Source of the DNA: Bryobacteraceae bacterium CoA2 C42
GTDB taxonomy: Bacteria > Acidobacteriota > Terriglobia > Bryobacterales > Bryobacteraceae
Assembly (NCBI GenBank): GCA_019931245.1
Contig: JAINDL010000066.1
Span: forward strand, 1-50,097
Reading direction: 5' to 3'
DNA: 50,097 nucleotides
A model generated the notes under the pieces. It made no database searches. It saw nothing but the letters and a program-made list of their open reading frames with translations, and was not told the origin of the DNA. A program made the position numbers and the translations under genes. Shown here one piece after another: positions 5,101 to 21,405 of the stretch (within the stretch, counting starts at the first letter, position 1; every line of letters starts with the position of its first letter).

Positions 5101-5742
5101 ATGAAAAGCATGATCCACGAGATACTGCCGGTGGGGCAGCTGCAGTGCAACTGCTCGATTTTGGGGGATGAGATCACGCGAGAAGCGATCGTCGTCGACC
5201 CCGGCGACGACATCAGCGACATCGAAGCGATCCTGGCCAAGCACCAGCTGACCGTGAAGATGATCGTGATTACCCACGCCCACATCGACCACATCGGCGG
5301 CGCGGCCAAGCTCAAAAAGATCACCGGCGCCCCCGTGATCATGAACCCGAAAGACCAGGAGCTTTACGACGCCCTCGCCATCCAAGCCGGTTGGCTCGGC
5401 ATGGAGACGCCCGAGCAGACCACCATCGACACCCCGGCCAAAGAGGGCGACACGCTCCGCTTCGGCGACTACGCGATGCACATCCTCCACACCCCGGGTC
5501 ATACGCAGGGCAGCACCTGCCTGTACCTGCCGGCCGAGCGGACGCTGATCGCCGGCGATACGCTGTTCCGCGACAGCATCGGCCGCACCGATCTGCCGGG
5601 CGGCGACGGGCGCAAGATCCTGGCGAGCATCAAGACGAAGCTGCTCGTGCTGCCCGAGGACACCGAGGTGATCTGCGGCCACGGGCCAAACACGACCATC
5701 GGCCGCGAGGCGAAACGGAATCCGTTTCTGCGGGGGCTCTGA
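5101..5742 (+). CDS. MBL-fold metallo-hydrolase (glyoxalase II-like)
   Basis: A 213-residue metallo-beta-lactamase-fold hydrolase. The zinc motif HxHxDH is HAHIDH at residues 59-64; HTPGHTQGS, AGDTLF and CGHGP supply the remaining metal ligands. Size and motif spacing match the short glyoxalase II-like family (YcbL type), which hydrolyses thioesters or related substrates in the cytoplasm. No rhodanese or dioxygenase domain is fused. Its TGA overlaps the ATG of the next gene (TGATG), so it is coupled to the methyltransferase. The substrate is not evident. Confidence 0.9.
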   Translation: MKSMIHEILPVGQLQCNCSILGDEITREAIVVDPGDDISDIEAILAKHQLTVKMIVITHAHIDHIGGAAKLKKITGAPVIMNPKDQELYDALAIQAGWLGMETPEQTTIDTPAKEGDTLRFGDYAMHILHTPGHTQGSTCLYLPAERTLIAGDTLFRDSIGRTDLPGGDGRKILASIKTKLLVLPEDTEVICGHGPNTTIGREAKRNPFLRGL

Positions 5743-6380
5743 TGAGCGAACTCCTCCGCGCGGCCTGGCTTACGATTGAGCCGGGCGACTACGAACAGCA
5801 CATGGCGGGCATCGGGCAGGCGCAGGCCAACGCCGGACTGATGGCGGCGTGGCTGGCGGCGGTAGGTCCGTCGGAGACGGTGCTCGTAGCCGGAGCGGGC
5901 ACCGGGCAGATGTTCGACTATCTGCCAGCCGACGCCGCCGGCGCCAGCCGCATGGTCTTCACGGATTTCAACCCGGTGTTCCTGGCCCGGCTCCGCGAGC
6001 GGCTCGGCGAGGCGGAAACCTTCGTCGATGATATCGAGGCCACGCAGTTGGCCGGGCCTTACGCGCATGCCGCCGTCACCCTCGTGCTCGAGCACGTCAA
6101 CTGGCGACGCGCCCTCGGCAGCTTCCGGCAGTGGGAGAGCCGTCGCGTGCTGACCGTGATTCAGGAGAACCCGGCCGATGTGGCCAGCGCCGTTACGCCC
6201 GGGCGGACGGTGCCCGGCACCATGAACGTGTTCCGGGACCGCGCCCGGCCCACGCTCGTGCCGCTGGCCGAGCTAACGGCCGCGATGGCCGACCTTGGCT
6301 ATCAGCTCGAGCAGGTGCATCCGGCGCCGGTCAGCGACGGCAAGCGGATGCTCGGCTGCTGGTTCGTCAGGACTTCTTGA
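5742..6380 (+). CDS. Class I SAM-dependent methyltransferase-like protein
   Basis: A 212-residue protein with a Rossmann-type nucleotide-binding segment VLVAGAGTGQMFDYL (about residues 47-61), followed by MVFTDFNPVFLARL, where an acidic residue at the end of beta-2 would bind SAM. A central AAVTLVLEHVNWR fits the post-II region. The start at 5742 overlaps the preceding stop and is preferred to far-upstream ATGs that lie inside the MBL gene. The 3' end overlaps a convergent small gene by 14 bp. The glycine motif (GAGTG) is acceptable but the substrate is unknown; it could be a non-catalytic relative. Confidence 0.75.
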   Translation: MSELLRAAWLTIEPGDYEQHMAGIGQAQANAGLMAAWLAAVGPSETVLVAGAGTGQMFDYLPADAAGASRMVFTDFNPVFLARLRERLGEAETFVDDIEATQLAGPYAHAAVTLVLEHVNWRRALGSFRQWESRRVLTVIQENPADVASAVTPGRTVPGTMNVFRDRARPTLVPLAELTAAMADLGYQLEQVHPAPVSDGKRMLGCWFVRTS

Positions 6381-16908: not shown

Positions 16909-18150
16909 CTACGGAGAAGGAGCGTTTTGGGCGAGGCGACCGCTGCGATTCTTGAGAATCCGGCTGACCACATCCGAGGTGGCAAACCACAGATCTCGAG
17001 GCTTGCTAATAGTGTACTCCTGCCCCTTGAAGAACTTCACGGCGTGCGAGATGGAGTCCCGCCAGGGGATCTGCGCCGGGTAGAGATTGTAGTTCAGATA
17101 GAAAAGCGGGAAATCCACGGTGCCCACCTCTTTGAGCGTTTCCGCCTCGACGTTCTGCTCGAGCATCACCTTCGGGCCGGCAAAGATGATCGCCTCCGAC
17201 TTGTTCGCACCGCCGAGTTCGGTCCGGATCAGGTCGCCGAGAAACTGCGTTTCACTGTTTTTGACCGCCAGCTTACTCAGATCGACCGTGCCGAATTTGA
17301 CCTTGCTCAGCGCCTCGCCAAGCGCCGGCAGGTCGAGATGGTCAACGTTCTCCTGCCGGTAGAGAACCTGCTGGCTGGCCATCGAAAAGGCGACCAACGA
17401 GAACCTGCCGATCTTCGGCTCCCGCAGGATCGACCGGAGAATCGAAACCAGCGCGGTCGTATCAACCGGCCGCATCACCGTGTTGCGCGGGTTCTGAGGA
17501 GCGTAGTTGAGCAGGACCTTGACGGCGATGCTCTCCCCGGCGGCGGCCCGTTCGACCGGCGGCTCGTCCTTGAAGCTCTCCTGATCAGCGGCGCGCACCG
17601 CATGCGGCGGAATCACCATCGCCATCTGGCTTTCCTTGCCGCTGAGCGTCGCCTCCACCTCCCAGAAATTCGAACACACCCGCTCCGCGCGGTCGCGCAT
17701 CAGCCAGTCGACGCGATACTTGCCCTCGCCCAGATCGAAGGCGCCGTACAGGGAAGCATCGCCTTTGGCCTCTTCTTCAATCTCCGGCACGCGGATCTTC
17801 TGCAGGAAGTAAACCGGATGATCGGGATCGGTGAGTGGGGCAACGCGGAACAAAATCGTCAGCAGGTTCTCGCGGCCGGCAAGTTCGCGCAACGGAACGG
17901 CCACTTCAAAACCGGCATGGAATCTGAGATCGAAGCCGACCAGCGCACTCTTGGTGGGAACCACCTGGCAGGGCAGATCCTGGCGCGGTTCGCGCATCTC
18001 AAAAACGGCCATGTCCGTGCCAAATAGGCGCACCGGCCCGCCGCTCGGGTTCATCACCGTTTGACCGGCGCCCGGCAGAGCCGCCAGTAGTGCCCCGGCA
18101 GCGGCCAGCAGCCGGGACGGACAACGTGGGAAGCAGGACAAGCGAAGCAA
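16909..18150 (-). CDS. Secreted hypothetical protein, VWA-like (acidobacterial type)
   Basis: A 413-residue exported protein I cannot assign with certainty. The first 30 residues look like a signal peptide (MLRLSCFPRCPSRLLAAAGALLAALPGAGQ). The C-terminal half (about 220-400) has the alternating hydrophobic strands and helices of an adhesion-type domain: IGRFSLVAFSMASQQVLYRQ, AIIFAGPKVML and VDFPLFYLNYN resemble von Willebrand A-like domains in Acidobacteria secreted proteins. A metal-ion-dependent adhesion site (DxSxS) is not seen. The tail overlaps the beginning of the neighbouring upstream reading frame but not the chosen methyltransferase start. Confidence 0.7.
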   Translation of the reverse strand: MLRLSCFPRCPSRLLAAAGALLAALPGAGQTVMNPSGGPVRLFGTDMAVFEMREPRQDLPCQVVPTKSALVGFDLRFHAGFEVAVPLRELAGRENLLTILFRVAPLTDPDHPVYFLQKIRVPEIEEEAKGDASLYGAFDLGEGKYRVDWLMRDRAERVCSNFWEVEATLSGKESQMAMVIPPHAVRAADQESFKDEPPVERAAAGESIAVKVLLNYAPQNPRNTVMRPVDTTALVSILRSILREPKIGRFSLVAFSMASQQVLYRQENVDHLDLPALGEALSKVKFGTVDLSKLAVKNSETQFLGDLIRTELGGANKSEAIIFAGPKVMLEQNVEAETLKEVGTVDFPLFYLNYNLYPAQIPWRDSISHAVKFFKGQEYTISKPRDLWFATSDVVSRILKNRSGRLAQNAPSP

Positions 18151-18357
18151 TGTTCCTCACAATTCCACTGCACGATTTCTTTCAGCCGAACGGAGACAAC
18201 CGGGTCGCCACCTAGCACACCGCCAGCCAGTGGATAAGCAGTATTATGTCTCAGATTCGCCGTCGCGCAACTGGGTGCATCACTTAATTCCCCACCGGAA
18301 TACCCGGGGACTCCTGCTTGCGGTGCCGCCGCCGCGCTGTGCTAGAGTGCAAGGATT

Positions 18358-18840
18358 ATGGCTTCGCGCAGTGTAAACAAGGTGATTCTGGTTGGCAATC
18401 TCGGCCGGGACGCCGAGACCAAGTTCACGCCCTCCGGCGTGTCGATGACTCGATTCTCAGTGGCGACCGCCCGCCGGTACAAAGACCAGGCGACCGGCGA
18501 ATGGAAAGAGGATACGGATTGGTCGAACGTCGTGCTGTGGCGGGCCGAGAACGTGGCGCCGTATCTGACCAAGGGCAAACAGGTGTACGTCGAAGGCCGG
18601 CTCCAGACCCGTAGCTACGAAGACAAGGACGGCCAGAAACGGTACTCGACCGAAGTGGTCGCCGATGATGTCATTCTGCTTGGCGGTCGCGGCGGCGAGG
18701 GCGGCGGCGACAGCGGCGGCTTCAGCCAGGAGCCGCGTATGATGTCTTCGCCCCGTTCGAGCGCCCCCCGATCCGCGCCCGCCCCGAGCGGCGGCTCTCC
18801 GTTCGATGCAGGCATCAGCGACGACGACGTTCCGTTCTAA
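18358..18840 (+). CDS. ssb: Single-stranded DNA-binding protein
   Basis: A 160-residue SSB. The OB-fold spans about residues 1-110 (VNKVILVGNLGRDAE, FSVATARRY, TDWSNVVLW, VYVEGRLQTRSYEDKDG), followed by a Gly/Ser/Pro-rich flexible linker and the acidic tip DDDVPF that recruits replication and repair partners. It forms tetramers and coats ssDNA during replication. A possible promoter is TTGCGG (18318) and TAGAGT (18343), with a long 19-bp spacer. The 207-bp upstream gap (18151-18357) shows nothing else I can name. Two DUF669-like genes follow after a 20-bp palindrome. Confidence 0.96.
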   Translation: MASRSVNKVILVGNLGRDAETKFTPSGVSMTRFSVATARRYKDQATGEWKEDTDWSNVVLWRAENVAPYLTKGKQVYVEGRLQTRSYEDKDGQKRYSTEVVADDVILLGGRGGEGGGDSGGFSQEPRMMSSPRSSAPRSAPAPSGGSPFDAGISDDDVPF

Positions 18841-18842
18841 AC

Positions 18843-18862
18843 TGGAACACCGCGGTGTTCCA
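18843..18862. promoter_or_regulatory. 20-bp perfect palindrome directly after ssb
   Basis: TGGAACACCGCGGTGTTCCA at 18843-18862 is its own reverse complement. It starts 3 bases after the ssb stop codon and about 90 bases before the start of the next gene. No T-run follows, so it is not a standard intrinsic terminator. It could be a protein-binding operator, an mRNA hairpin that limits read-through, or a stabilising 3' structure. Confidence 0.6.
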
Positions 18863-18951
18863 ATTTGGCGCGAGCCGCAGGTCGGCATCGTGGAATCAAA
18901 CACTTAGCAATGGCAATCGGGTTGCTTTCTTTGAGTACGGAGGCAATGCCC

Positions 18952-19431
18952 ATGGCCGAGTTCGTCTCACTGTTTGATTCCCTGCCCGATCCGGTTCCCG
19001 AGCCACCCGCTCCGCACCCGCCCGGTGGTAACCCGGGCGACCCCATGAACCTATCGCGTTTCAACCGCGTCTTTTCCGCCGAAACGGTCCCGCCGCCGAG
19101 TTTTGGCGAGGTCCCCGACGGACGCTACCGGGTCCTGATTACCGACCTGGAATTGACCTTGGCTTCCACCGGCAATCCGGTCCTGAAGTACGGCATGCGC
19201 ATCGGGGCCGGTCCGTGTGCGGGCCGGATGATCTGGAAGCGCCGCGCCATTACGGCCAATACGCTGCGCTACACCAAGAGTGAACTGCTCACCTGCGGTC
19301 TCCGCCTCGAGCGGCTATCCCATCTCAACCGCCGTCTCGCGGAGTTGCAGGGCATCGGCCTCGAGGTCAGCAAGGTGTCCAAGGGCGAAAAATCGGACGT
19401 TTTCTTCAACCGGAGGCTGGTGACCGTATGA
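18952..19431 (+). CDS. DUF669-like protein 1, no acidic tip
   Basis: A 159-residue protein, probably of the DUF669 family, which occurs largely in phages near recombination genes. The start at 18952 is chosen for GGAGG 8 bases upstream; upstream in-frame ATGs lack this. After a Pro-rich N-terminus (LPDPVPEPPAPHPPGG), the domain covers about residues 48-157: VPDGRYRVLITDLEL, GNPVLKYGMRI, a WKRRAI segment and FFNRRL. It has the beta-rich pattern expected of an OB-like or related fold. It lies after ssb and overlaps the next paralog by 4 bp. It lacks the DDDIPF tail of that paralog. Function unknown; ssDNA-related by context. Confidence 0.7.
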   Translation: MAEFVSLFDSLPDPVPEPPAPHPPGGNPGDPMNLSRFNRVFSAETVPPPSFGEVPDGRYRVLITDLELTLASTGNPVLKYGMRIGAGPCAGRMIWKRRAITANTLRYTKSELLTCGLRLERLSHLNRRLAELQGIGLEVSKVSKGEKSDVFFNRRLVTV

Positions 19432-19889
19432 ACGGAGTACTGGTGGATTCCCGCGTGGACCTGCGCCCCTACGACGAGGCCTACGCCAACGAGGTCGTCA
19501 GCGAGCAGGAGCCCTGGAACAGCATTCCGGACGGCCGGTATGAAGTGCGGGTCGACCGCGTCGAACTGACGCAGTCGAAAAGCAGCGGCAACCCGATGCT
19601 GAAGTGGACTCTGCGGATTCTCGGGGCAACGTTCCAGAACCGTCTCCTGTGGAAGTATCGCGCGATCACCGAGAACACGCTCAAGTACGTCAAGCAGGAT
19701 CTGTGGGTATGCGGACTGGAACTGCCGCAGTTTTCCGCACTGCCCTCTCATCTTTCGGCGCTCGCCGGCCTTGAGCTCGAAATCACGAAAATCAGCCGCG
19801 GCGAGGACTCCAACATCATCTTCAACCGGCGCTTGGGTTCCGTCGACCAGGGGGATGGCGGTGTCTGCGACGACGACATTCCCTTTTGA
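19428..19889 (+). CDS. DUF669-like protein 2 with SSB-like acidic tail DDDIPF
   Basis: A 153-residue paralog of the preceding protein, with matching blocks IPDGRYEVRVDRVEL, SGNPMLKWTLRI, LLWKYRAITENTLKYV and IIFNRRL. It ends DDDIPF (148-153), nearly identical to the tip DDDVPF of the SSB encoded two genes upstream. In bacteria this tip docks SSB onto its partner proteins, so this protein may compete with or substitute for SSB, or be presented to the same partners. The gene overlaps the first by ATGA. This is inference from a six-residue match plus gene order; no partner is identified. Confidence 0.72.
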   Translation: MNGVLVDSRVDLRPYDEAYANEVVSEQEPWNSIPDGRYEVRVDRVELTQSKSSGNPMLKWTLRILGATFQNRLLWKYRAITENTLKYVKQDLWVCGLELPQFSALPSHLSALAGLELEITKISRGEDSNIIFNRRLGSVDQGDGGVCDDDIPF

Positions 19890-19950
19890 GCGAGTTGCCG
19901 CAGGCAGCCCCGGGGAATTATTGTAGGGAGTTACGCTCCGTTTCTAAATT

Positions 19951-21405
19951 ATGGCCACGAACACTCCCATCACAGTCGCCCATGGCGACGGCATCGGTCC
20001 CGAGATTATGGAGGCCACCCTCCATATTCTGAAGGAGGCTGGCGCTCGTCTCGACATCGAGACCATTGAAATCGGCGAGAAGGTGTACCTGCGCGGCAAC
20101 TCCGCAGGTATCGAACCGAGCGCAATTGAATCGCTGCGCCGCACCAAAATTTTCCTGAAGGCGCCCATCACCACCCCGCAGGGAGGCGGCTTCAAGAGCC
20201 TTAACGTCACCACCCGCAAGATGCTCGGCCTCTATGCCAACATCCGGCCGTGTGTGGCCTACCATCCTTACGTCGATACGCTGCATCCGAAGATGGACGT
20301 GGTCATCGTCCGGGAAAACGAAGAGGATACCTACGCCGGCATCGAGCACCGCCAGAGCCGGGACGTCTACCAGTGCCTGAAGCTGATGACGCGTCCGGGC
20401 TGCGAACGCATTGTGCGCTATGCCTTTGAATACGCGGTTCGCAACAATCGTAAGAAGGTGACCTGCTTCAGCAAGGACAACATCATGAAGCTCACCGACG
20501 GCCTGTTCCACAAGGTCTTCGATGAGATCGCGCCCGAGTACCCGCAGATTGAGAACGAACATTGGATTGTCGACATCGGCGCAGCCAAACTGGCCGATAC
20601 GCCGGAGATTTTTGACGTCATCGTCATGCCGAACCTGTACGGCGATATTCTCTCCGACGTGGCCGCCCAGATTGCCGGCTCGGTAGGCCTGGCCGGTTCG
20701 GCCAACATCGGCGTTAAGTATGCCATGTTCGAGGCCATTCACGGGTCGGCCCCCCGCCGGGCGGGCCAGAACCTGGCCAACCCGTCGGGCCTGCTGCTCG
20801 GCGCCGTCATGATGCTGGTCCACATCGACCAGCCCGACATCGCCGAACGGGTGCATAACGCTTGGCTCCGGACCGTCGAGGACGGCATCCACACCTACGA
20901 TATCTACGCCGAGGGCGTCTCCACGCAGAAGGTTGGAACCAAAGAGTTTGCCCAGGCCGTCGTCGACCGCCTGGGGCAGGAGCCCACCAAACTGAAGGCC
21001 GCCCGCTACAGCAACGCGCCGCAACAGGATCTCTCCGACCGCAAGTCGCACTACGTGCCGGAGGTTAAACAGCAGATCGGCGTCGATATCTTCATCAACT
21101 GGACCGCGGGCACGGCCGAGGATCTGGGTAGCGCGCTTTCGCAGGTGGCCATCGACGGACTGAAGCTCGTCATGATCTCCAACCGCGGCGTGAAGGTGTG
21201 GCCGAACGGCTTTCCCGATACGCTGTGCTGCGATGCCTGGCGCTGCCGATTCATGTCCTCGGCCGCCGAGAACGGTCCGGTCACGCACGCGCAGGTGATC
21301 GCGCAACTGCAGGCGCTGCTCGTCGCCAACTACGACTTCATTAAGTACGAAAGTCTGTGTACCTTTGATGGCCGCCCCGACTTCTCGCTCGGCCAGGGCC
21401 AGTAA
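19951..21405 (+). CDS. icd: NADP-dependent isocitrate dehydrogenase
   Basis: A 484-residue beta-decarboxylating dehydrogenase that converts isocitrate to 2-oxoglutarate in the TCA cycle. Family features seen: N-terminal AHGDGIGPEIM, the KSLNVTTRKMLGLYANIRP substrate loop (with Ser/Asn/Arg ligands), VIVRENEEDTYAG, the D-rich LYGDILSDVAAQIAGS metal site and EAIHGSAPRRAG. A C-terminal extension of roughly 140 residues beyond the common core resembles that of the longer Thermus-type enzymes. The short gap (19890-19950) from the DUF669 gene contains a weak GGAG/CTCC hairpin. Cofactor choice (NADP) is inferred from the family. Confidence 0.93.
   Translation: MATNTPITVAHGDGIGPEIMEATLHILKEAGARLDIETIEIGEKVYLRGNSAGIEPSAIESLRRTKIFLKAPITTPQGGGFKSLNVTTRKMLGLYANIRPCVAYHPYVDTLHPKMDVVIVRENEEDTYAGIEHRQSRDVYQCLKLMTRPGCERIVRYAFEYAVRNNRKKVTCFSKDNIMKLTDGLFHKVFDEIAPEYPQIENEHWIVDIGAAKLADTPEIFDVIVMPNLYGDILSDVAAQIAGSVGLAGSANIGVKYAMFEAIHGSAPRRAGQNLANPSGLLLGAVMMLVHIDQPDIAERVHNAWLRTVEDGIHTYDIYAEGVSTQKVGTKEFAQAVVDRLGQEPTKLKAARYSNAPQQDLSDRKSHYVPEVKQQIGVDIFINWTAGTAEDLGSALSQVAIDGLKLVMISNRGVKVWPNGFPDTLCCDAWRCRFMSSAAENGPVTHAQVIAQLQALLVANYDFIKYESLCTFDGRPDFSLGQGQ

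Follow-up and report, generated by a model that had tools for sequence, protein, structure and literature searches.

A tandem DUF669 gene pair behind ssb in Bryobacteraceae is a candidate host-adopted, sigma54-controlled accessory SSB

The window, the whole 50,097-nt stretch of Bryobacteraceae bacterium DNA analysed here, carries two overlapping paralogous genes, dufA and dufB, just downstream of ssb. We read this pair, at a probability of about 0.6, as a host-adopted, sigma54-controlled accessory SSB, in which DufB bears a partner-docking tip and DufA is a tipless companion. The reading builds on computed family membership, fold prediction, the tip and its loss, synteny, a promoter element and purifying selection, and suggests a spare single-strand-binding system that only certain conditions would switch on.

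All stranded features of the locus lie on the forward strand. The first gene, ssb (18,358-18,840), encodes a housekeeping-type SSB (PF00436, E 5.4e-36, 123 bits) with the tip DDDVPF. It is followed by a 20-bp perfect palindrome, TGGAACACCGCGGTGTTCCA, at 18,843-18,862, the sole perfect palindrome of at least 18 bp in the window, and by a sigma54-type -24/-12 element, ATGGCAATCGGGTTGCT, at 18,910-18,926 with the spacing GG-N10-GC. The sequence GGAGG at 18,939-18,943, read directly off the DNA letters, is the likely ribosome-binding site of dufA. Both dufA (18,952-19,431, 159 aa) and dufB (19,428-19,889, 153 aa) encode DUF669 proteins (PF05037) with a modelled OB-like core, which is followed by a disordered tail in DufB and by no C-terminal tail in DufA. 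The two genes share the 4 nt ATGA (19,428-19,431), in which the stop of dufA overlaps the start of dufB, and the overlap is 1 or 4 nt across nine pair loci. The mechanical ORF of dufA starts at TTG 18,865; the ATG at 18,952, 8 nt past GGAGG, is the likelier start, because M(A/P)EF at this point is common to eight aligned DufA sequences. DufA and DufB share 42% identity over 130 residues, and the genome holds no DUF669 match besides these two. Thus ssb, the 20-bp palindrome and the two overlapping paralogues, as described by an earlier sequence-only reading, were all recovered. That reading also noted a Pro-rich N-terminus of DufA, which is present in the window but absent from three of the eight aligned sequences (L042-L044); the conserved part is M(A/P)EF(V/A)SLFD, which precedes the Pro-rich stretch and reads MAEFVSLFD in the window (18,952-18,978). 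Its EFVSLFD resembles the consensus of sliding-clamp motifs just loosely, and this assignment was set aside. Beyond ssb, the window's genome holds three more SSB-family matches, one on contig C177 (L004) and two close together on contig C159 (L005, L006).

Both paralogues were placed in DUF669, as had been proposed, with PF05037 scores of 27.7 bits for DufA (longer mechanical ORF) and 47.2 bits for DufB against the curated Pfam cut-off of 21. Their best stretches span positions 10-66 and 7-75, respectively, of a profile 138 positions long. Both also match PHROG families annotated as ssDNA-binding, and the Pfam profile search gave no PF00436 match for either protein up to an E value of 1. Neither an unrelated family nor a lack of conservation was found. 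The link between DUF669 and SSB function is experimental, since the DUF669 protein of phage HK620 (HkaK) is reported to act in vitro as a tetrameric SSB and to stimulate the annealase Sak4 (PMC5928155). According to the same source, its last six residues, NDYPPF, are required to bring Sak4 onto coated ssDNA, the protein without them is a barrier to Sak4, and the authors liken NDYPPF to the DDDIPF of E. coli SSB. In Firmicutes phages, DUF669 is described as adjoining sak4 (PMC8093625).

AlphaFold2 models of DufB and DufA, built from alignments of 56 and 42 rows, respectively, agree in a core of five strands, with helices placed between the third and the fourth. The DufB model has a mean pLDDT of 82 and is disordered at residues 140-153. 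The DufA model (mean pLDDT 81) has a low-confidence N-terminus and ends on strand 5, the last predicted strand of the domain, consistent with the earlier remark that the first paralogue lacks the tip. Against solved structures, the DufB model gave as its top match PrgE of pCF10 (E 4.8e-5, 16% identity), described as an OB-fold SSB of a conjugative plasmid that binds both dsDNA and ssDNA and oligomerises through its N-terminal tail (PMC11137577). Other PDB matches were weak (E 0.009 and up), with bacterial and mitochondrial SSBs and PriB interspersed with unrelated proteins; in the search against viral models a DUF669 protein came first (E 5.7e-9). A search of solved structures with the DufB sequence returned nothing meaningful. 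The OB assignment of both proteins is model-based, and the predicted OB-like fold makes the ssDNA binding proposed earlier plausible. Of the 25 columns without variation in the 55 other alignment rows, DufA retains 18, and of 43 nearly invariant ones it retains 28. Judged from the alignment, it is the most altered copy, yet one that retains the core pattern; because seven invariant and 15 nearly invariant columns are lost, its DNA binding may be changed or lost.

Counting the genome of the window itself, 17 of the 19 genomes of its genus carry the gene, nine as a tandem pair and eight as a single copy; the two genomes without it are 83% and 75% complete. Directly upstream of the pair lies ssb in 9/9 pair loci, and it lies within ~2 kb in five of the eight single-copy loci (L146, L147, L148, L149, L151), the remaining three having other neighbours or short contigs. 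The chromosomal location and the ssb linkage suspected from the window alone are supported, and the neighbourhood is conserved across the genus. Neighbour labels were assigned by eye, except for icd (Pfam), and the label vWA stands for a gene that matched no Pfam family significantly; the ORF picking in our first neighbourhood clustering took many antisense ORFs in this GC-rich DNA, and those cluster counts were not used. At one single-copy locus (L146, genome G003), an unannotated 208-aa ORF occupies 5,214-5,840 between ssb and the DUF669 gene. A class-wide search of 399 genomes (E 1e-10) gave matches in 36, all in the window's own family, and 61 of 200 genomes of that family hold a DUF669 match. 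In a second genus of the family, g67, one copy was found in 8/8 genomes, with neighbour clusters c1 and c2 common to all eight loci and no ssb match within the stretches examined around them.

In a tree of 100 rows, dufA, dufB, the single copies and the g67 copies (eight rows each) form one clade of 32 (99/95), separate from 47 phage-type rows (96/85); a third group (100/98) holds 20 of the family's 21 other orphan copies. Excluded from this tree were L134 and L137, which have bad frames, L127, whose protein is the same as that of L128, L037_A and L037_B, which come from a near copy of the window, and phage-type rows that were repeats. A FastTree run with viral rows added (144 rows) likewise recovered the 32 chromosomal rows as one group (0.997) free of phage-type and viral rows. 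The dufA rows sit on a long stem (0.91), so the duplication may either predate or postdate the divergence from the single-copy lineage.

The 20 orphan rows represent a second chromosomal DUF669 group within the family (L126-L165, for example L127, L131, L138, L159, L160 and L162), with mostly DDxLPF-like tips, no sigma54 sites and, for the most part, no phage-module matches nearby. At one locus in another genus of the family (L163, genome G135, 914-2,062), a member of this group stands directly behind ssb at a distance of 78 nt, with the tips DDDVPF and DDVPF and no sigma54 site, and constitutes a second ssb linkage.

The acidic, SSB-type tip DDDIPF of DufB (19,869-19,886), almost the same as the DDDVPF of the ssb product, had been pointed out in the window; it is indeed there and is kept in 9/9 dufB, and a -PF end was found in 0/9 dufA. 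All 16 single-copy and g67 proteins end in -(L/V/I)PF after acidic residues. The tip is not special to DufB, and its origin as a DufB innovation was rejected: -PF ends also occur in 44 of 47 distinct phage-type rows, in 70 of 77 viral rows and, among the other orphan rows, in 22 of 24. On these alignments, the -PF tip is a family trait and the tailless DufA is the exception. Acidic residues among the last eight average 3.0 in dufB, 2.5 in single copies, 4.1 in g67 and 1.4 in the 47 phage-type rows; by sequence, chromosomal tips resemble the DDDVPF of the host SSB more closely than phage tips do. Median dN/dS is 0.13 for dufA, 0.06 for dufB, 0.14 for single copies and 0.16 for g67, from 22, 14, 22 and 14 usable pairs, respectively, out of 28 each (L037 and pairs with pS of at least 0.7 were excluded). 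Both dufA and dufB are under purifying selection, and reading frames are open in all eight aligned DufA rows.

We then scored the -24/-12 element with weights that we set ourselves from the sigma54 consensus. Sites scoring at least 20 with GG-N10-GC, 39-47 nt before the start, were present at 25/25 clade loci (17 in the genus, 8 in g67). At 22 of these loci the score was at least 22.5, compared with a background of 4 of 692 mechanical ORFs of the same DNA; the other three score just 20, a level reached by 5.3% of background ORFs. Among the other orphan copies, 0/24 reach 20 within 80 nt, and among prophage-type loci 0/52 exceed 20.5 within 110 nt. The 25 loci are not independent events, because they are related, but the surroundings of the element differ between the two genera that keep it. 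The gene for sigma54, rpoN, was found in 13/13 genus genomes searched, in 7/8 g67 genomes and in 1/8 genomes from other families of the order.

The 19 genus genomes contain 96 strict sites (TTGGCAY-N5-TTGCW), whereas the reversed pattern occurs 25 times. Three of the strict sites are DUF669 sites (genomes G006, G012, G013), and the window's own site is not among the five strict sites of its genome. The genes downstream of the other 93 (L206-L298, for example L209, L211, L212, L264 and L290) were clustered from one picked ORF each, with 26 singletons and ten proteins annotated. Among these 93 are sites ahead of genes for an RtcB ligase, a sigma54 activator, an OmpA-type lipoprotein, a DksA-like protein, a glycosyltransferase and a HlyD-type protein. 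Such a set, stress- and envelope-like in character, gives a hint of the inducing signal.

The conserved element bears directly on the sequence-only description of the locus as an ssb operon, in which dufA and dufB would be read through from ssb constitutively and the -24/-12 element would be there by chance or for another use. The genes are on the same strand, only 111 nt separate the ssb stop from the dufA start, and a terminator scan of 18,000-20,000 found none. Against this, the GG-N10-GC spacing and its position are kept in 25/25 loci, including 8/8 g67 loci that have no ssb match in the stretches examined. The operon label is doubtful and is not borne out, because a conserved sigma54-type element sits between ssb and dufA, and we consider plain read-through rather unlikely.

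Somewhat less likely again is a competence-type second SSB, with the pair protecting incoming ssDNA in transformation. In Firmicutes, SsbB is a second SSB that guards incoming ssDNA in this way, a pattern that a conditional promoter and a tipless paralogue would match. However, no competence gene was found behind the annotated strict sigma54 sites (93 sites, ten proteins annotated).

The palindrome next to ssb, taken as GGAAC-N8-GTTCC with at most one mismatch, recurs at the same distance from dufA in seven of the eight pair loci examined. Three of eight single-copy loci have exact dyads, but with other spacings, and g67 shows only one-mismatch matches, in two of eight. Overall, palindrome-like dyads were found at 12 of 24 loci, compared with 6% of random stretches. 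The corresponding RNA hairpin folds well in the window, L039 and L041 and poorly in L038, L040 and L042-L044. The palindrome could be a 3' hairpin of ssb, or a candidate activator site ~84 bp ahead of the point where the transcript is expected to start. The genome has no other copy at up to two mismatches, so that a repeated regulator site was rejected.

The phage-type set has 132 loci, comprising 52 from genomes (L045-L096; 60 minus 8 orthologues) and 80 from viral contigs (L326-L405; kept of 102), with proteins obtained for 77 of the 80 viral loci. These relatives were found by short peptide patterns and 80 of 102 viral contigs were kept, which favours close relatives; they are uncultivated and 42-53% identical to DufB in the best segment, and named phage records gave no DufB match at E 1e-5. 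Nearby lie sak4 (51/52 genome and 79/80 viral loci, 130/132 in all) and genes for an ERCC4 nuclease (51/52 and 76/80), a RecD2-like helicase (49/52 and 72/80), an exonuclease (43/52 and 74/80) and a DnaG-type primase (35/52 and 50/80). An ssb match was found near 0/132 of these loci, and a second DUF669 stretch, as in a tandem pair, at 0/80 viral and 0/52 genome loci, with 8/8 pair loci detected as a positive control. The carriers may include other mobile elements, because some genome loci also hold a serine recombinase. Nine of the genome loci (L046, L047, L048, L049, L060, L061, L063, L064, L067) contain nearly identical DUF669-RecD2-primase modules on contigs assigned to very different bacteria, namely several Desulfobacterota groups, Ectothiorhodospira and a Thiosymbion MAG, and represent a broad-host mobile element or a binning error.

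A kinship with such phages would also suit an anti-phage or decoy role, in which the pair binds ssDNA or SSB partners needed by an infecting Sak4-type phage: dufAB would descend from the SSB of phages that are represented in the same family, and L045-L096 include Bryobacteraceae and Solibacteraceae records. Yet there is no PADLOC match, on which ground a defence gene was rejected, and there are no defence genes among the annotated neighbours, so that we regard this role as improbable. Least probable of all, and largely refuted, is a prophage or mobile-element remnant that came to lie behind ssb by chance and has no host function: the nearest relatives outside the family are indeed phage-type, but the same neighbourhood is kept genus-wide, no sak4, exonuclease, ERCC4, RecD2 or DnaG match lies beside the chromosomal locus, dN/dS is far below 1 and the frames are open in the eight aligned DufA rows.

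We thus return to the accessory SSB, for which ssDNA binding, co-assembly, docking and inducibility are what we infer. The dufAB lineage would descend from the phage Sak4-SSB (DUF669) lineage and would now be inherited chromosomally in two genera of one Acidobacteriota family. Sigma54 would turn the unit on; because it has its own sigma54 promoter, it should stay silent until an enhancer-binding ATPase answers a signal. The dufA/dufB overlap would couple translation of both genes. The OB-like domain of DufB would coat ssDNA, and its DDDIPF tail would recruit host proteins whose usual docking partner is SSB. DufA, with the fold but not the tail, would either co-assemble with DufB or coat ssDNA next to it, and its presence would lower the number of docking tips, an idea made concrete by HK620, because the tailless HK620 SSB is reported to block its partner (PMC5928155). 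The DufA motif M(A/P)EFxSLFD may provide a further contact. More tentatively, and as a minority view of ours, the pair could be a sigma54-inducible heteromeric SSB that the bacterium built from a phage SSB gene via tandem duplication. In such a heteromer one subunit would keep the docking tip, and the other would have lost it and would carry the N-terminal contact motif. If true, the heteromer would be the bacterial equivalent of RPA-like, multi-subunit SSBs and an alternative ssDNA coat under stress. The sequence-only reading had also suggested a possible heteromer, one that would compete for SSB partners.

DUF669 SSBs are known as phage recombination proteins. The available parts of the DUF669 literature report no stable chromosomal set, and our searches of the literature on Bryobacteraceae with RpoN, or on domesticated phage SSBs, returned nothing on one. 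Described here is a chromosomal DUF669 set that is conserved, selected and sigma54-linked, with one lineage split into tipped and tipless paralogues. The locus raises the questions of what role a second, conditional SSB coat plays in a bacterium, and whether repair and replication proteins are redirected when the number of SSB tips changes.

Among known systems, bacterial SSBs (PF00436), including second SSBs such as SsbB, share the OB-like fold predicted for both proteins and, with DufB, the acidic -PF tip; in contrast to them, DufA and DufB have no PF00436 match. PrgE is the best solved-structure match of the DufB model, but is plasmid-borne and only 16% identical to DufB (PMC11137577). The phage Sak4-exonuclease-ERCC4-RecD2-DnaG modules are alike in the 42-53% identity, the fold family and the mostly -PF ends of their DUF669 proteins. 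Unlike dufAB, they are single-copy at 132/132 loci, with sak4 at 130, no ssb nearby and, at the 52 genome loci, no comparable sigma54 site. The HK620 SSB belongs to the same Pfam family and has an SSB-like tip, NDYPPF against DDDIPF (PMC5928155). Compared with it, dufAB has no sak4 beside it and no Sak4-family match above the cut-off in the genome, where two AAA_24 matches elsewhere score 25.9 and 21.1 against 27 bits; it is chromosomal, has its own sigma54 element and pairs the tipped gene in tandem with a tipless paralogue.
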